Part shown: piece by piece, positions 14,674 through 34,320 of the stretch
How the letters are laid out: each line of letters starts with the position of its first letter
Position numbering within the stretch: the stretch's first letter is position 1
DNA from: a virus
Strand: one strand, 5' to 3'
Length of the DNA: 44,256 nucleotides
Virus record (IMG/VR): IMGVR_UViG_3300010938_000067
Span: 1-44,256 of that record
Made by a program: the position numbers and the translations under genes
Notes under the pieces: generated by a model
What the model saw: the letters and a program-made list of their open reading frames with translations, nothing else
The model's database searches: none
Told to the model about the DNA's origin: nothing

Positions 14674-16926
14674 TCAGATTAACCCCATCCCACTGAGATA
14701 CTCTTCTATGTCATCCGGCATCTCTTTCTCCTGGACGTGCTCTTCTCGCCTTTCCTCTTCGTCCTGTTTGACAGGCTGCGGAGTCCCGAGGATGTCGATG
14801 TCGATGACCTCCTCGACCGGAGTATTCACAGTGCAGGTATACACAGCGCCAGCTAAGGAGTCGGCTCCGTCCTTGAACCCCTTCCTTGGGTGATCGACCT
14901 TGTTGCCTCTGATGAGTTGCAACTTCAGGAGTTCCTGATCGACGAGGATGGGATGGTAATACGCACGAAGACGCCCATCATAGATGGAGGTGGAAAGCGT
15001 ATCATAGTGGTCTTTCTTCACCACCATGAATTCCGTATAAATGCCTTTATTCATGAAGATGTTCTTCGTATCGACGCTCTGCCACCTGTCCATCGTCACC
15101 ATCGCCACGTTGAACCTATCGTTCAGCATGAACACGAATCTGCGAACGTCATTGAAGTCTATCTCGCCGTTCGGAGGGGCCTCCCAATATTTGATGAGGT
15201 CCATCCGTATCACAGGCATTATCTGTCCATCTGTTTCGCTTTTCCTGAATCCTTCACAGTGAACCATACACAGTGCAGACCTGTCGCGGTTAAGGCCGAG
15301 GTCGATATGGATGAACCTCGGCGCTGCGCTGTCATCTTTATCCCGGAATGTAGGGGGGAGACGCCCCTCTTCATCGAACGGCGAACGGACGCAATACTTA
15401 TCCGTACAAGATTCATCATGTTTATGGAAGCAGGCCATGACCCTATCTGGATCGCGGAAATACGCTTCCGCCATCTTCGGTGGCCGGCAAAGGATGCGTG
15501 CGTTCGCATTCACCGGGTCACGTATGAAGTCGGAGGTGAAATCTTCTGGTTTCTTGGTGGGATTGGATACGAAAGTGGGGCACTTTATAGCCCATACCCT
15601 CGGTTCTCGATACCCGAGGATTTCATCATCTTCCCACCATATCGTTATCGGGCCGAGATCCTTCGTCACCTTTCTCGTAATCTTCCTTTCTATCACCCCA
15701 TCGTACCGTTGCTGGATGAAGTCGTTCTCATACCTCGGGAACGAAAGCAGCGCAACCTTTCCGACCTGGGGGAAACGCGAGATGACCGACAGCCTCGCCA
15801 TGTCGTAGATGGCCTTAGCAGAAAACTTCACGGATTCTTGGGTATGGGCAGAGTCATCCTGAGTTTTGAATGCGGAGATTTCGTCCAACGTAACCGCAAT
15901 CAGGTTATACCCCTCCCACCCCTCAGCCTCAGAGTGGCCAGAGAAACACCTGATGGGTCGCTCCATGAACTCGATCTTCTTGCTCATCGGGATGAACCCC
16001 TTCTTCTGGAAGTATGGGCTGGCGATGAGCAAGTTCTTCAGTGGGTCGAAGAACACCCGTTGTGCTTGCTCGGAGTTCAGCGCGATGTTCAGGAGGTCGA
16101 TGTACTCCCCATGACCGATACCGTAATAGTCAAGTGGGTCCCTTAGGCAATGCATCAGGTAGATGATCCTGGCGAACGCTATACGAAGGGTGTTGCCGGT
16201 CAATATATTGCCCTCTAAGGTGAAGTTATGTATCTCTGGAACGTCTGGGCAATATGTTTGTTCAACCCTATCCGTTTCCTCGACCGATACCACCTTCCAG
16301 TGAGCCTCTGGACCAGGATTGATGTCGCGATGCTCATAGTTAACTTGTAACCAACTACCGTGCACCAGGTCGCAAGTGTAAGTTTCTTCGAACTTCCTCT
16401 TGACCATATCTAAGGTCTTAGTCGCAAACCACCTGTGATATCTAGTCGTGTGAATCTCTTTCGTTTCGTCGCCCCGTTTCACAACCAACTTCCATATCGG
16501 AAGCACGCTCGTTTCAAGGACCTTAGCCTCTTTCCACCCCTGCGAAGTCAGCAGCGTTTGAACGGTGTTCGCCACATCCCCGATCTTCCTTATACCGTCT
16601 TTGGTGATTATTTCTGTTTCATACGCGAAGCACCAATCTTTCCCACCACCTTTACCAATCTGACATATAACCTCATTTACAGTGGACTCCCAGATCTGTT
16701 GCGCTTTCTCCTTCCCATGCATCTTCTCTAGTGTGTGGGGGAGGAAGATCTGGGTCATCTTCGACGCAATCTGCTCTTGCACAGGAGACAGTGGCTTAAG
16801 TCCTAGGAAATACGGGTCCGTCACGAACCTATGCAGATCGACTGGCTCCTCCTCGAACTCCTCCTTCTGGAGCAAAGACCTGAAGTCCTCAAGCGTTATG
16901 TTCCCGCCGAACCTACGCATGGCCAT
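14674..16926 (-). CDS. terL: Terminase large subunit with intein
   Basis: 750 residues before splicing, about 603 after. N-terminal ATPase: Walker A GKGGGKDW at 91-98 is interrupted right after Trp98 by a mini-intein, and continues with TLRIAFARIIYL. A Walker-B-like segment LIAVTLDEIS lies in the second third. The C-terminal nuclease has an RNase H fold with HIDLGLNRDRSAL (first Asp), VTMDRW and a late HPRKGFKDGADSLAGA (last Asp). The enzyme pumps and cuts phage DNA during packaging. The stop of the small subunit is directly adjacent. The P-loop would be broken without splicing. Confidence 0.92.
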   Translation of the reverse strand: MAMRRFGGNITLEDFRSLLQKEEFEEEPVDLHRFVTDPYFLGLKPLSPVQEQIASKMTQIFLPHTLEKMHGKEKAQQIWESTVNEVICQIGKGGGKDWCFAYETEIITKDGIRKIGDVANTVQTLLTSQGWKEAKVLETSVLPIWKLVVKRGDETKEIHTTRYHRWFATKTLDMVKRKFEETYTCDLVHGSWLQVNYEHRDINPGPEAHWKVVSVEETDRVEQTYCPDVPEIHNFTLEGNILTGNTLRIAFARIIYLMHCLRDPLDYYGIGHGEYIDLLNIALNSEQAQRVFFDPLKNLLIASPYFQKKGFIPMSKKIEFMERPIRCFSGHSEAEGWEGYNLIAVTLDEISAFKTQDDSAHTQESVKFSAKAIYDMARLSVISRFPQVGKVALLSFPRYENDFIQQRYDGVIERKITRKVTKDLGPITIWWEDDEILGYREPRVWAIKCPTFVSNPTKKPEDFTSDFIRDPVNANARILCRPPKMAEAYFRDPDRVMACFHKHDESCTDKYCVRSPFDEEGRLPPTFRDKDDSAAPRFIHIDLGLNRDRSALCMVHCEGFRKSETDGQIMPVIRMDLIKYWEAPPNGEIDFNDVRRFVFMLNDRFNVAMVTMDRWQSVDTKNIFMNKGIYTEFMVVKKDHYDTLSTSIYDGRLRAYYHPILVDQELLKLQLIRGNKVDHPRKGFKDGADSLAGAVYTCTVNTPVEEVIDIDILGTPQPVKQDEEERREEHVQEKEMPDDIEEYLSGMGLI
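16192..16632 (-). other. Mini-intein inside TerL (residues 99-245)
   Basis: 147 residues. It starts with Cys99 in CFAYETEIITKDG (block A), has a block-B TxxH in HTTRYHRWF (Thr161, His164), block F in the EIHNFTLE stretch, and ends GNILTGN with Asn245, followed by Thr246 as +1 nucleophile. The penultimate residue is Gly rather than the usual His, a known but less common variant. There is no room for a homing endonuclease. The insertion is within the P-loop, the most conserved site of the ATPase, which is a classic intein position. Confidence 0.85.
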
Positions 16927-22502: not shown

Positions 22503-23487
22503 CCTCGAACACCTTCTTTTTGATATCTTCAGATACGGACCGGTTCTCCTGTATGAACTTCCTCAAGTCATTTTCACCATGGAACTTCTCGTTACCAATC
22601 TTGAACCAACTACCAGCCTTTTCAATCACACCGCATTTCAAGGCCAAGTCGATGAGTTCGATAGAGTCATCGCGTCTACCATCTGCATACAGAGGGAACT
22701 GTCCAGACAAGAATGGGTTCGATACCTTCGACTTCGTTATCTCCCATTTGATCATCTGACCTATCTTAACTTCTATGACCCTGCCCCCAACATTCTTCTT
22801 CTCGTATATGAATGACGTTTTGTCTTTACCTGAGAATAGTTTCACGATGACGGATGGGAAGTGTTCTGCCGCAAGCCCTCCTCCATGGTCAGCGAACACC
22901 ATCGTTCCGGCGAATTTGTTCCTGGCCTGGGATACGAGGATTATCAGCGCATCCTGGTTCCAGGCGTTCCACTTCGAAAGGAGTTCACCAACAGCTCGTG
23001 CGTTCTGTCCTATAGAGTTGTTCTCTTCTTCGAAGAACTTCGGTGAATTTATGGTATTTATCGAATCCAGTGCTACGACATCGACCATGTTGTTCTGTAG
23101 TAGATCTTTCGTGGCGGACAGGATGTCGTCGAGATTGTTCTTCCGCATCACCAGCAATGACTCTGTATCGACACCATTCTTCTCCGCCCAAGTGGCGTCA
23201 TACCCCTTCTCTGCGTCGATATAGAGGCATCGCCTCATCCCGGCCATCTGGGCTTCAGCTATGCTGCGCAAACAGAGTGTGCTTTTCCCACTCGACCTAT
23301 TCCCCCAAAGCATCACGAATCTACCTGCCGGCCACCCGCCACCCAATGCATGGTCCAAGGATAGCGAACCAGTTGGCACTCTTGCTGGTATGCTGTATTC
23401 AGATCCGGTACCGATGACCTTCTGGCCGAACTTCCTGTTTATCTCGTTGACCTGATTGATGAGTTCTTCCAAGCTAAGTTCGCCCAT
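22477..23487 (-). CDS. recA: RecA-type recombinase
   Basis: 336 residues. ATP site Walker A GNRSSGKST at 62-70 after PTGSLSLDHALGGGWPAGR, the conserved RecA opening; Walker-B-like VDVVALDSI; LIILVSQ as strand with Gln; and an L2-like AGTMVFADHGGGLAAEHF. RecA coats single-stranded DNA and promotes strand exchange. The Cas4-like nuclease and RuvC genes follow. The ATG overlaps the end of the polymerase gene and has GAGGGGG upstream. Confidence 0.92.
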   Translation of the reverse strand: MGELSLEELINQVNEINRKFGQKVIGTGSEYSIPARVPTGSLSLDHALGGGWPAGRFVMLWGNRSSGKSTLCLRSIAEAQMAGMRRCLYIDAEKGYDATWAEKNGVDTESLLVMRKNNLDDILSATKDLLQNNMVDVVALDSINTINSPKFFEEENNSIGQNARAVGELLSKWNAWNQDALIILVSQARNKFAGTMVFADHGGGLAAEHFPSVIVKLFSGKDKTSFIYEKKNVGGRVIEVKIGQMIKWEITKSKVSNPFLSGQFPLYADGRRDDSIELIDLALKCGVIEKAGSWFKIGNEKFHGENDLRKFIQENRSVSEDIKKKVFEVEVPQEED

Positions 23488-25840
23488 CCTGCCCCCTCTT
23501 CAGCTCGAGAATCCTGGAGGCCAGGATGAGGCCATCATCAGCAAGGGTGAGATCTCCACTATCCGTTCTGGTTGTCTTGATGCATATCTTCGTATACGGC
23601 TGTAGCCAAGCGGCCACCTTCTTGTATTGGCTTGGGAATATCACTATATCTTCTACGTTTTCTCCATCGGTCACTATGACCCTGGCCATGTACTCACCCT
23701 TCCTGGTTTTGAATGTCCTCACCGACAGGGGGACGACCAGTGCTTTTGCGTCGGTGAGTTTTCCGATGCCGTGATTATACAACTCTTTCTCGTCCTCTGA
23801 GAAGATATCCCCTTCACAGAGCCGTTCGAACGGGGTGAGGGGCAGCCCGGCTCTTTTCCTTTGTTGGTAGTCAGCAAGATAGGTGAAACCAGCCAGCCTG
23901 TTGCCGCAAACCAAGCCGATGATGACTGCATCCTCATCGACGACACCGAAGTCGACGTATACCGTCATCGACCCAGACTGATCTTCTATGGTTATCCTGG
24001 TGTTGTCGGAATACTTCTTCACTTCTTTGACAATCGCTTTCACGATCCCAGCCCCGTCGATATCGCCGATACCGATGGTTTCGAAGGGGATGTCCAACTC
24101 ATCTAGGTCTACGATGCCGAGCAGATCATAAGCCTTGCGCTCATCACCAGGATGCCCTATCTCCGAGAACGCTCCGGCCTCTTGCAGACGAGCGACAACT
24201 GCCGATGTGCATTTCCTCTTGGAGACCTTTGCGATGAAGTCATCGACAGACCGATAAGGTCGATTAGCGATGATCTCTTCTGCGGCGACAGCGCCGACCC
24301 CTTTGATATTCATCAGTCCATAACGTATGGAATCTCCTTCCAGGGAGAAGGATATGTCCGACTTATTCACGTCTGGCGGCAACAGTTCTATGCCGAGGCG
24401 CTTCGCCTCCATGTAATAAGTTGTGAGTTTTTCCCTCTTCGTTTCATGTTTGAACAATGCATACATGTATTCCACTGGGAAGTGCGCCTTCAACCACATG
24501 CAGCGATACGTTATCAACGAATATGCTGTAGCATGTGCTTTATTGAAGGCGTAACCTGAGAACTTCTCAAAGTCAGACCATAGTTTCTTGGCTGTAGTCT
24601 TTCCGAGTATCTTCGAAGCAGATTCGAGCCACCTCTTTTCGTACTTCTTGAATTCTTCTGGGTCCTGTTTCTTGCCGATGATCTTCCTGACTTTATCCGC
24701 ATCCGACCAGGAGAATCCGCCCACCTTAACGAGTGCTTCTATGAGTTGCTCCTGGAATATGAAGAGGTTGTACGTGTCTTTCGTGATTTCTGTCAGTATC
24801 GGGTGTATCTCAGTAATCTCCTCGAGCCCCTTCTTCCTTCTTATGCACGAATCCCCCACCGTGAGGAGTGCCCCTGGCCTTACCAGTGAAGTCGCTAGAA
24901 CGATGTCGGCGAACGAGTCGACGCCCATCTCTTTCATGAGTTTCGTAAGAGGGGCGGCTTCAGCTTGGAATACGCCTACGGTATGACCTTCCGATAGCTC
25001 CCTGAACACCGTCTCGTCATCAAGAGGTATCTCTTGAAGGTTTACCTCGATGCCGTGCCGCTCCTTGATCTTGTCGAGGCATTCCCTTATACAGGTAAGG
25101 ATCTCCAAACTAAGGATGTCCATCTTGATGAGGCCGACCTTGGCGCAATCTTCCATATCGTATGCAGCGCAAGGAACTCGCTCACGTCCATGTTGGGCTC
25201 GAGACTCCAAAGGCAGGATATCGGTCAGCACTTTCCCGGCCACCACGACGCCGGCTGCATGGACGCCGCTCTGCCGCCATCTACCCTCGAATCGTTTAAC
25301 GAGATGGACAACCTCGCTGTATTTATCTCTGAACCACTTCGTATCGTGAGAACAGAGGAACGTATCGATGTCCTCGAACTGCTTGCATACCCTATTGACA
25401 TCATCCATCGGGACGGCGAATGCCCTGGAGATGTCCCTCACGAGGTTCCTCGACGAGAACTTCGTAAACACAGATATGTTCGTTACGTTCTTCCACCGAC
25501 GCCGGAGGTATTCTTTAACTTCATCACGTCTAGCATCTTCGAAGTCTAGGTCGATGTCTGGAGGCTCGATCCTGCCCTGGTTGATGATCGCCGCTGGCCC
25601 GGTCGGTGCGTAATCGGTTATCCCGATGAGATAAGCAACAGACGATCCTGAGTCGTTCGTGTATTTCTTCCCAGACCGCAGCAATCTCAACATCGCCTCT
25701 GCTCCGCCGAGAACCCGTATGGCGAACAACTCATCTTCGACCCATTTCTGGTCAAGCACCGTTCTGTCTGACTTCTTAACCAAGTCAAGCAGTTCTAGAA
25801 AGCTTAATCTCTCTAAATTTCGGGTCATATTGGATTTCAA
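23474..25840 (-). CDS. dnaE: DNA polymerase III alpha, C-terminal part with catalytic palm
   Basis: 788 residues. Catalytic aspartates: PPDIDLDFED with Asp95 and Asp97, and Asp241 in IKMDILSLE. Other family marks: SGVHAAGVVVAG, VGVFQAEA, IFQEQLIEALVKVGGFSWSDADK, GYAFNKAHATAYSLI, then a helix-hairpin-helix and an OB fold near the end (ITIEDQSGSMTVYV). Residues about 34-93 (EDELFAIRVLGGAEAML, SGSSVAYLIGITD) look like a diverged copy of the early palm that is also present at the end of the upstream gene. TTG at 25840 has GGAGG ten bases upstream; an ATG lies four codons later. Confidence 0.9.
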   Translation of the reverse strand: MKSNMTRNLERLSFLELLDLVKKSDRTVLDQKWVEDELFAIRVLGGAEAMLRLLRSGKKYTNDSGSSVAYLIGITDYAPTGPAAIINQGRIEPPDIDLDFEDARRDEVKEYLRRRWKNVTNISVFTKFSSRNLVRDISRAFAVPMDDVNRVCKQFEDIDTFLCSHDTKWFRDKYSEVVHLVKRFEGRWRQSGVHAAGVVVAGKVLTDILPLESRAQHGRERVPCAAYDMEDCAKVGLIKMDILSLEILTCIRECLDKIKERHGIEVNLQEIPLDDETVFRELSEGHTVGVFQAEAAPLTKLMKEMGVDSFADIVLATSLVRPGALLTVGDSCIRRKKGLEEITEIHPILTEITKDTYNLFIFQEQLIEALVKVGGFSWSDADKVRKIIGKKQDPEEFKKYEKRWLESASKILGKTTAKKLWSDFEKFSGYAFNKAHATAYSLITYRCMWLKAHFPVEYMYALFKHETKREKLTTYYMEAKRLGIELLPPDVNKSDISFSLEGDSIRYGLMNIKGVGAVAAEEIIANRPYRSVDDFIAKVSKRKCTSAVVARLQEAGAFSEIGHPGDERKAYDLLGIVDLDELDIPFETIGIGDIDGAGIVKAIVKEVKKYSDNTRITIEDQSGSMTVYVDFGVVDEDAVIIGLVCGNRLAGFTYLADYQQRKRAGLPLTPFERLCEGDIFSEDEKELYNHGIGKLTDAKALVVPLSVRTFKTRKGEYMARVIVTDGENVEDIVIFPSQYKKVAAWLQPYTKICIKTTRTDSGDLTLADDGLILASRILELKRGQDGRT

Positions 25841-27074
25841 GATTCAGGAACCTCCAGAAGATCAGGTTGAACTTTATAGGGTCGACCTCGGTGATGCCTA
25901 GGACATATGCGAGAAGCGAGCCGCCAACAGAACCTCGTCCAGGCCCAACCATGATGCCGTTCGTCTTACTCGCATGCACCATATCCCAGATGATCAAGAA
26001 ATAGTCTGCGAATCCGGATTTGATAACGATGTCCAGTTCATCTTCCAACCTTGACACGTACTCTTCACCAAGTCCCAACTTCTCGAATCGTTCCCACGCA
26101 ACCTCTTTCAGGAACTCAGCAGAGTCAGTCATCTTCGAGAATCGCGGCAGATTGTTCCCGCCTAGGGTGAGTTCAACATCACAGAGATCGGCTATCGCAA
26201 CGGTATTGTCGTAGATATCCGTCCTGTCGATACCCATACCGACCATGAATTTTTCGATCTCTACCCTAGACAACAGGTAGTTGTCATACTTGTCGAACCG
26301 CAACCTGCGGTTGGGCCACAAGAAGTTTATCCTCTCCATAAGGTCGTACCTGCGAGACTCCGTGAATAGCCCCATCGCTCTTTCCCTGTCACTATCCTTG
26401 AAAGAGGACACCTGGGAGAGGAGCAGCCCAACCTCAGCAGCCACCTTGTCGTCTTTGTCAGCGTAGTGCGCATCAGCTGTAACCACTACTTGCAGCCCGT
26501 TAGAATCCGCTACTGCAAGTAATGCCTCGTTCAGCTCAGGCGGGTTCCACGGCTGTACCTCTACGAATAGATGCTCGAATAAGGACAGTTTCTCGATAAC
26601 ATCCTGTGGGGTATATGGCGTATCTCCTGCAAGAGATCGACTCAATATCCCATCGACGCATCCGGTTAGAACCACCAAGTCTGATTCTTTTCCTGATGAG
26701 AGCGATGACAAGAAATCCAAATCAACACGAGGTTTCTTATAGAATCCGATGTTCCACGCTGCCTCAGATATGCGGAAAAGTTTCTTGAGCCCCTCGTTGT
26801 TCTTCGCTAAAAGGCCGATATGGTAAATGACATCTTCTTTGTTACGCGAAGACATGTCATCGGCGAGATACGCCTCGACACCTATGATTGGCTTGACCCC
26901 GTATTTATGGCATTCCTCGTAGAACTTTACAGTGCAAGCCAATGACCCATGATCAGTGATGGCGACTGCTGGCTGTTCGAGGGTATTGGCACGCGCGGCA
27001 ACCTCTTCTGGCGTTGCGAAACCATCGAGCAACGACCCCATGGTGTGAACGTGCAGATGGACGAAATCACTCAT
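25785..27074 (-). CDS. dnaE: DNA polymerase III alpha, N-terminal PHP domain part
   Basis: 429 residues. The PHP domain starts HLHVHTMGSLLDG with metal-binding His residues, then VAITDHGSLA and GVKPIIGVEAYLAD, as in DnaE. The end has the palm entry VGPGRGSVGGSLLAYVLGIT (376-395) and RFLNLE, after which normal DnaE continues to PDIDIDF; here the frame stops after about 17 unrelated residues. The next gene starts in a different frame with a 56-base overlap. The two products probably assemble into one polymerase, with the PHP part possibly providing proofreading or stability. Confidence 0.9.
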   Translation of the reverse strand: MSDFVHLHVHTMGSLLDGFATPEEVAARANTLEQPAVAITDHGSLACTVKFYEECHKYGVKPIIGVEAYLADDMSSRNKEDVIYHIGLLAKNNEGLKKLFRISEAAWNIGFYKKPRVDLDFLSSLSSGKESDLVVLTGCVDGILSRSLAGDTPYTPQDVIEKLSLFEHLFVEVQPWNPPELNEALLAVADSNGLQVVVTADAHYADKDDKVAAEVGLLLSQVSSFKDSDRERAMGLFTESRRYDLMERINFLWPNRRLRFDKYDNYLLSRVEIEKFMVGMGIDRTDIYDNTVAIADLCDVELTLGGNNLPRFSKMTDSAEFLKEVAWERFEKLGLGEEYVSRLEDELDIVIKSGFADYFLIIWDMVHASKTNGIMVGPGRGSVGGSLLAYVLGITEVDPIKFNLIFWRFLNLEIQYDPKFREIKLSRTA

Positions 27075-30552: not shown

Positions 30553-30945
30553 ATGGGGAACGATTGGCAAAAGATCGAATGGTCGACTCGACCTCGCCGG
30601 TACGACGAGCGGGGCTACGTCGAGCGGTGGTGTCCCGAACATCTTTTCGCCCAACGGGATGGATGGGTTCTTGAACACCGTCTCGTGATGGAGGACTACT
30701 TGGGGCGCTACCTCGATCCGGATGAAGTGGTTCATCACATAGACGAGATAAAAGATGATAACAGGATAGAGAACCTTTGGTTATGTACCAAGAATGAACA
30801 CTCTAAGATACACAAGATCGGGGCGAGTCTCCCGATGAGCATGAAGGCTAAGATCAGGAAAGCACAGCGGCGCCGGAGCGGTCGATTCGTGCGGGACAGC
30901 TCGGGCAGATTCGTAGGGATTTCTGATGAGGAAAAAGACACGTGA
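30553..30945 (+). CDS. HNH endonuclease
   Basis: 130 residues. The motif [17 protein letters not shown] (His61, His62, Asn70) with [15 protein letters not shown] before it and TKNEHSKIH after it is the HNH nuclease of phage and homing proteins. An N-terminal WCPEH gives a possible zinc ligand. The C-terminal region is basic with a repeated SGRFV segment, likely binding DNA. It may be a free-standing homing endonuclease or a packaging-related HNH; terminase is not adjacent, which favours the former. Confidence 0.88.
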
Positions 30946-32959: not shown

Positions 32960-33182
32960 CGTGCAATTGTTGTTACTGTCTGCTTCTGTAACACTCAACC
33001 TATTTCTAGTTGTCGCTCTGGTTTACGCACGGAGATCGATGAAGTCGCTGCTGGAGAGAGGGCGTATCCTCGGTGAAGTAACGGGATATGTGAACATACT
33101 GAAGATGCTGAAGGAGATAGTGGAAAACTATGCGGCACAAGAAGGACAGGACAACACAGATGAAGCGAGCCCTGACGTTTGA
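32952..33182 (+). CDS. Single-span membrane protein, 76 aa
   Basis: MDNVQLLLLSASVTLNLFLVVALVYARR is one N-terminal membrane helix followed by an amphipathic helix and an acidic tail. The ATG overlaps the previous gene and has GGAGGGTAAGG before it. Function unknown. Confidence 0.7.
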   Translation: MDNVQLLLLSASVTLNLFLVVALVYARRSMKSLLERGRILGEVTGYVNILKMLKEIVENYAAQEGQDNTDEASPDV

Positions 33183-34320
33183 TGATGTAAGTTGTGTTCC
33201 GGCTCGTTCCAATCTTCTCAGTTGGCGTGATGTAGATGTCTCTGTAGATATAGGTCGCGCTTCAGACTGGGAGCTGGTTCTTGATGTCCCTATCCTCTCT
33301 TCTCCCATGGACACCGTAACCGGCTATAGCATGGCCAGGTTCATGGCGTCGAATGGGGGGATTGGGGTAGTGCATCGGTATTGCTCCATCGACACCCAGG
33401 TAGAGATCGTGAAGACCTTGGCCGATGAGGGGTTCTATGTCGGTGCTGCTGTCGGCGTGAACGGTGACTCATGGGAACGTGCATTGAGCCTCATCGAGGC
33501 TGGGGCTAGTCTCATCACCATCGATGTCGCGCACGGGCATACCGAAGCCGCTCTGGACAGAACTGACAATCTGGTCGGTCTTGGCCATGATGTCATCGTG
33601 ATGTCCGGCAATATATGTACTTACGAGGCAGCATGTGACTATATAGAGGCTGGCGCTCATGTGCTGAGGGTCGGCATCGGAGGAGGGAGTGCCTGTACGA
33701 CCAGGAAAGTAGCTGGTGTAGGTGTTCCACAGATAACGGCTATCATGGATGCAGCCAGGGCGCGGGATCATCTAGATAGTCAGGTTGTGATAGTTGCTGA
33801 TGGTGGTATCCGCACGAGTGGCGATGCTGTGAAGGCGATAGCGGCCGGAGCTGATGCGGTGATGCTCGGAGGTGTACTAGCTCCATACCCAGTTTCGGCG
33901 GGGCCGGTCATGCTCGTGAATACCGGAGAGAAGTCGAATCTCAACAGTGTGGTGCGCTCCATGGTCGCTCCGGGGAAGGGTACCGATGCCGGTGAGTTGT
34001 TGCAGAAGGGTGTTACCGAGATAGATTTCGGCGAACGTATCGTGAAGAAGAAGGTATTCAGGGGGATGGCCTCCGATTCGGCTCTGAAGGATAAAGGTGA
34101 AGTCGATTATGCCGTAGAGGGAGAAGAGTTCCTGCTCGATATCGACTATGATTTCGAGAAGACGTTCGCCGATTTCGTGAAGGGCATACGTCTTGGACTG
34201 GCCTACATGGGGTGCGACTCTATCGATGATGTCCATGAGATGGATCGGCTCATCGAGGTGACTTATAATGGGGCGGTAGAGGCTCTGCCCCATATGATGT
34301 TCAGGGGTGATAAAGCATAG
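33160..34320 (+). CDS. IMP dehydrogenase / GMP reductase family enzyme
   Basis: 386 residues from the ATG 33160. TIM-barrel marks: LTFDDVSCVPARSN, SSPMDTVTG, GGIGVVHRY, then GIGGGSACTTRKVAGVGVPQ with active-site Cys179, and DGGIRTSGDAVKAIAAGADAVMLGG for phosphate binding; the flap region FRGMAS follows. CBS domains are absent, as in GMP reductase and some IMPDH. It would interconvert IMP, XMP or GMP and adjust guanine nucleotide supply during infection. The sequence does not separate the two activities clearly. Confidence 0.85.
   Translation: MKRALTFDDVSCVPARSNLLSWRDVDVSVDIGRASDWELVLDVPILSSPMDTVTGYSMARFMASNGGIGVVHRYCSIDTQVEIVKTLADEGFYVGAAVGVNGDSWERALSLIEAGASLITIDVAHGHTEAALDRTDNLVGLGHDVIVMSGNICTYEAACDYIEAGAHVLRVGIGGGSACTTRKVAGVGVPQITAIMDAARARDHLDSQVVIVADGGIRTSGDAVKAIAAGADAVMLGGVLAPYPVSAGPVMLVNTGEKSNLNSVVRSMVAPGKGTDAGELLQKGVTEIDFGERIVKKKVFRGMASDSALKDKGEVDYAVEGEEFLLDIDYDFEKTFADFVKGIRLGLAYMGCDSIDDVHEMDRLIEVTYNGAVEALPHMMFRGDKA

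Follow-up and report, generated by a model that had tools for sequence, protein, structure and literature searches.

A probable mini-intein just past the P-loop lysine of a phage large terminase, with a natural intein-less allele and a mixed class 1/class 3 signature

The terL gene and its insert

The window analyzed here is the whole 44,256-nucleotide stretch of the IMG/VR virus record IMGVR_UViG_3300010938_000067. Its minus strand, on which all the terL features described below are located, contains an open reading frame (ORF) of 750 codons (16926 to 14674, with the stop codon at 14674-14676) that codes for the large terminase subunit, TerL. The reading frame includes an insert of 147 codons, in one open frame from 16632 down to 16192, which corresponds to TerL residues 99 to 245 and translates as CFAYETEIITKDG...HNFTLEGNILTGN. 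According to the translation, the N-extein (16633 to 16926, residues 1 to 98) ends in the P-loop, or Walker A motif, GKGGGKD (16636 to 16656, residues 91 to 97), followed by Trp98, while the C-extein (14677 to 16191) comprises the remainder of the ATPase domain together with the C-terminal part. The identity of the exteins as TerL is given by a match to phrog_2 (E 4e-9), and they are 40% identical to the annotated terminases of Streptomyces phages (Karimac and others, the best cultured relatives) in two blocks that flank the insert. The P-loop is invariant as GKG(G/S)GKD in an alignment of seven TerL sequences (G91, K92, G93, G95, K96, and D97), with an Asp after the Lys and not the Thr/Ser of the classical Walker A motif.

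The insert starts with a Cys straight after GKGGGKDW and ends in a Gly-Asn pair before a Thr, giving the junction context GKGGGKD-W|C...GN|T-LRIAF. These boundaries and coordinates are exactly those of the initial annotation, which had also described an intein that splits the P-loop. The location of an intein at the TerL P-loop is supported by the intein-less allele, the intact active-site residues, and the purifying selection described below, but the site itself has to be corrected to two residues beyond the Lys of GKG(G/S)GKD. From this position, the unspliced precursor is probably unable to bind or hydrolyze ATP, as the P-loop would be cut off from its helix.

An intein-less allele and selection on the insert

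A scan of IMG/VR with the TerL as the query retrieved three contigs, referred to here as L001, L002, and L003. The first two carry the insert, and their terL genes are identical to each other. L003 (IMGVR_UViG_3300043543_000382), however, codes for a 603-residue TerL that is 99% identical and lacks the insert, with the N- and C-exteins contiguous and GKGGGKDW joined directly to TLRIAF at the exact W|T junction. The window and L003 share 94 to 96% DNA identity over about 11 to 11.5 kb (blastn), and their alignment breaks at 16191/16633, that is, at both edges of the insert; L003 lacks exactly 441 bp, the insertion being in frame and seamless. We consider this natural empty allele to be the decisive evidence that the insert is genuine. 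The initial annotation had pointed out that homologous TerLs with the same segment retained would speak against an intein; instead, L003 and the TerLs of Streptomyces, Rhodococcus, and Thermus phages are without it, as are those of Microbacterium and Brevibacillus phages and of a Methanocaldococcus virus.

Between the inteins of the window and L001, 23 of 441 nucleotides differ (18.5 synonymous and 4.5 nonsynonymous changes), which corresponds to a dN/dS of 0.057 for the intein versus 0.043 for the extein and, with the changes taken as independent, departs from neutrality with a P of 6e-10. Four residues are changed (76, 77, 91, and 105), none of them catalytic, while Cys1, the TxxH motif, the block F His, Asn147, and the +1 Thr are present and identical in L001. 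The insert is under purifying selection. Such constraint means that it matters as a protein and says nothing about whether splicing is immediate or unconditional. For an intein in an essential enzyme, the loss of splicing would kill the phage, and this alone is a sufficient explanation of the selection. The dS of the intein (0.23) is no lower than that of the exteins (0.17 to 0.18 in all three pairs), which, within the limits of three alleles, suggests that the intein was already present at the split of these phages and that L003 later either lost it or acquired an empty allele by recombination.

Being an in-frame segment with coding constraint, the insert could also be an extra domain that stays, unspliced, in the mature TerL. 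We find this very improbable, as it parts the invariant P-loop from its helix, is bounded exactly by a complete set of splicing residues, and, outside of the window and the two contigs that share it, is missing in all other TerLs examined, among them the 99%-identical one. Even less credit can be given to a self-splicing RNA intron or to an insertion that keeps the frame but conceals an endonuclease in another one, as the ShiLan element does (PMC11855218). Both kinds of elements are known as insertions in phage genes, but no Rfam intron matches the insert even at permissive thresholds, the five other frames are all closed by stops, and the alleles differ at sites that are synonymous in the host frame.

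In a comparison with intein profiles, which the initial annotation had proposed, NCBIfam intein_Nterm (TIGR01445) matches residues 1 to 85 with 25.9 bits, above its curated cutoff of 24.5, whereas Pfam Intein_splicing remains under its cutoff (19.5 bits, E 9e-4). A phmmer search of the PDB found no sequence relative, and a tblastn search against phages retrieved nothing significant. AlphaFold models built with 2 and with 52 sequences were of low confidence (pLDDT of about 50). The Foldseek result of the first was meaningless, while the nine best PDB matches of the second were all inteins, with class 3 DnaB-1 and gp41-1 first (E 0.08 to 0.2); as the input alignment already contained inteins, these matches lend no more than slight support to a predicted HINT fold. 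With 147 residues, the element has the size of a mini-intein and has no room for a homing endonuclease domain.

Active-site residues and relationship to other inteins

The splicing blocks can be read along the whole insert. Cys1 (16630 to 16632) occupies the class 1 nucleophile position (A:1), block B contains the TxxH motif T63-R-Y-H66 (16435 to 16446), and block F reads Y-C128-P-D-V-P-E-I-H135-N-F, with His135 (16228 to 16230) as the His of HNF. The penultimate Gly146 and the C-terminal Asn147 (16192 to 16197) are followed by the +1 Thr (16189 to 16191), the first residue of the C-extein. In addition to Cys1, the intein contains the complete WCT triplet, which had been overlooked in the initial annotation, namely, Trp68 at B:12 (16429 to 16431), two residues after the block B His; Cys128 at F:4 (16249 to 16251), the class 3 nucleophile position, placed by a gap-free alignment with the block F YD/YC; and Thr145 at G:5 (16198 to 16200). 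A Cys at F:4 alone is not rare among class 1 inteins (PMC4031507), but the WCT triplet is the defining mark of class 3 (PMC3196547, PMC7664689, PMC7891396), the definition of which also requires that there be no nucleophile at position 1 (PMC3196547, PMC7891396). Because Cys1 is present, we do not file this intein as class 3, and its signature is a mixed class 1/class 3 one. Tori and Perler (2011) reportedly studied inteins with WCT plus a position 1 nucleophile, and we treat the mixed type as already known.

The spacing of these residues is nearly identical to that of the class 3 mini-intein of Mle DnaB (H65, W67, C124, and N145, compared to H66, W68, C128, and N147 here; PMC5222942). The class 3 DnaB mini-inteins (Mle, Msm, and Mch DnaB-1) share with the window intein both the WCT triplet and the mini-intein format but lack a position 1 nucleophile, have a penultimate His, and gave no phmmer match to it.

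A similar combination of residues was found in a group of larger phage inteins, which we call the TGN type after their Thr-Gly-Asn ending. The TerL intein of Gordonia phage GordDuk1 (L014) is located near the Walker B motif of a related TerL. Its relatives, from 97 phage records, reside in genes for TerL, portal, methylase, gp55-like, and DNA polymerase proteins. A search of IMG/VR started from the GordDuk1 intein gave 62 distinct examples (loci L238-L317), of which 61 have Cys1 and all have the Cys at F:4, the Thr at G:5, and the terminal Asn. The penultimate residue is Gly, completing the TGN ending, in 60 of them, and the +1 residue is most commonly Thr (32), followed by Ser (23) and Cys (7). 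When these inteins were aligned with that of the window (alignment A4), C1, H66, C128, T145, and N147 were invariant, and T63, W68, and G146 were conserved in at least 90% of the sequences. The TGN-type inteins thus resemble the window intein in Cys1, TxxH, the Trp at B:12, the Cys at F:4, the ending, and a +1 Thr, Ser, or Cys, and they too mix class 1 and class 3 signatures (Cys1 plus the WCT residues). They differ from it in their length (about 325 to 435 amino acids), a long insert separating block B from block F, the WCP in block F, and the lack of the HNF His. Membership of the window intein in this group, considered from the shared signature, was not supported by the profile tests: its N-terminal half scored 17 bits against the TGN-type profile, no better than unrelated inteins, its C-terminal half was not above noise, and the hhalign probability was 2%. 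What remains is the sharing of the signature alone.

These counts bear on the end residues, which the initial annotation had regarded as unusual and as a possible cause of slow or conditional splicing. With Gly in the penultimate position in 60 of 62 phage inteins, +1 Thr in 32 of 62, and Thr being one of the three standard +1 nucleophiles (PMC4031507), the combination is an ordinary one for phage inteins. The penultimate His is poorly conserved among mycobacteriophage inteins, where Gly, Lys, and Ser occur, and in other inteins its role can be taken over by the block F His (Kelley et al. 2016, PMC5050341). A slowing effect finds no support either. The RDF intein of phage Bethlehem (gp51), like that of the window a phage intein with Cys1 and a penultimate Gly, although in another host protein and with an endonuclease, splices completely in its native form, whereas the Gly-to-His mutant reaches about half completion only after more than 5 hours (PMC5050341).

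According to a published hypothesis, class 3 arose from a phage intein after the loss of the first nucleophile. If both cysteines were active or interchangeable, the window and TGN-type inteins could be extant forms that bridge class 1 and class 3, an idea that we consider speculative and rather unlikely. If true, they would represent the phage-borne state that this hypothesis predicts. The largest census of class 3 excluded Cys1 inteins by definition, and both the window and TGN-type inteins fall outside it. The Cys1 plus WCT signature, common to some 60 other phage inteins, makes the origin of class 3 testable with two point mutants.

Insertion at the P-loop and DNA packaging

Inteins at the P-loop of TerL have already been published. 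TerL1-a and TerL1-b of mycobacteriophages (Kelley et al. 2016, PMC5050341) are likewise Walker A inteins with Cys1, and the one tested, TerL1-b, splices readily. However, they are found in another TerL family (terminase_1), where they are inserted at Lys|Thr and at a position one residue off, compared to two residues past the Lys here, and TerL1-b has an active homing endonuclease, while the window intein lacks one. The TerL of Rhodobacter phage RcKickapoo (L012), a more distant member of the same family as that of the window, also has a P-loop intein with a +1 Thr and WCT residues. It corresponds to residues about 123 to 456 of the translated stretch and is a homolog of class 3 DnaB-1 inteins with solved structures (E 5e-16), but it is inserted at or next to Lys|Thr, has 334 amino acids with an endonuclease-like region, and lacks Cys1. 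Of the Microcystis phage Mic1 TerL inteins (PMC7156551), one is also in the ATPase domain and has Cys1 and a +1 Thr; it was discarded as a case of the same site because it lies deeper in this domain (TG|C...HN|TPKGYG), and it has a penultimate His. Given the RcKickapoo, TerL1-a, and TerL1-b inteins, the TerL P-loop has been invaded more than once, and the site in the window is one more within a few residues. The pattern of inteins colonizing the ATPase center of packaging motors is extended by one TerL family and one insertion point.

Many TerLs of this family have a Cys or Thr at the position that would be +1, although pattern scans are biased by the residue sought. The pattern GKGxGKDxC matched 120 stretches in viral contigs, nearly all of them intein-less TerLs with Cys at +1. 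When the pattern was tightened to C-[FLIVM]-xxx-T following the P-loop, which presupposes Cys1 and GKGxGKD, viral contigs gave no more than the two alleles already known, and the matches in bacterial genomes were due to chance.

We conclude that this is very probably a genuine self-excising mini-intein located two residues past the P-loop Lys, which most likely splices constitutively and is largely a neutral passenger. The position, the boundaries, the empty allele, the selection, and the catalytic residues are directly observed, while splicing, its rate, the Cys that starts it, and the lack of a regulatory role are what we infer. The 750-residue precursor would be translated before the intein folds, and Cys1 or Cys128 would then attack the Trp98-Cys99 bond. 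Transfer to the +1 Thr and cyclization of Asn147 would follow, and ligation would leave GKGGGKDW-TLRIAF in a 603-amino-acid TerL laid out as the intein-less allele. The intein would be retained as a passenger because an essential enzyme would be lost if it did not splice. We favor this reading because all five terminase inteins tested by others splice readily (PMC5050341) and because the nearly identical L003 does without the intein.

Alternatively, the intein could be a conditional switch that splices in response to redox state, metal, temperature, or DNA and thereby gates DNA packaging, a control that has been proposed for the Mic1 TerL inteins by their authors (PMC7156551). The insert does interrupt the ATPase center and evolves under purifying selection, two cysteines of the intein are candidate nucleophiles, and conditional intein splicing is documented elsewhere, for instance, in mycobacterial DnaB (PMC6195587, PMC7360933). 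Nevertheless, we consider a switch improbable: a phage with a 99%-identical TerL lacks the intein, each of the five terminase inteins tested splices readily and the penultimate Gly is fast where tested (PMC5050341), purifying selection is expected for any intein in an essential enzyme, and we found no switch-specific sequence feature in the window intein. Packaging gated by splicing, as put forward in the initial annotation, has no support yet. Nearly identical phages with and without the intein form a natural pair in which any cost or regulatory effect of a P-loop intein could be tested directly.

Some other features of these genomes deserve mention. Directly downstream of terL, Streptomyces phage Karimac and Rhodococcus phage Weasels2 (L005 and L006) have an HNH endonuclease gene, and the window contains a free-standing HNH_3 endonuclease ORF at 30553 to 30945 on the plus strand, possibly a homing endonuclease. 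The left end of the contig (1 to 350, minus strand) starts inside a protein with in-frame repeats (TGTKTHSADAFLKATGTKTHSA...) and may be an assembly break in a repeat. DnaE, the DNA polymerase III alpha subunit, is found as two minus-strand ORFs in different frames (23474 to 25840 and 25785 to 27074) that overlap by 56 nucleotides, with the GPGRGS...AYLLGIT segment represented in both. Two related phages (L319 and L320) have the same split arrangement, and Streptomyces phage Daubenski has a single DnaE of 1,094 amino acids; frameshifting, a two-subunit enzyme, or gene fracture are possible explanations. Last, the window codes for a homolog of IMP dehydrogenase/GMP reductase (33130 to 34320, plus strand; Pfam E 2e-81), an unusual metabolic gene in a phage.
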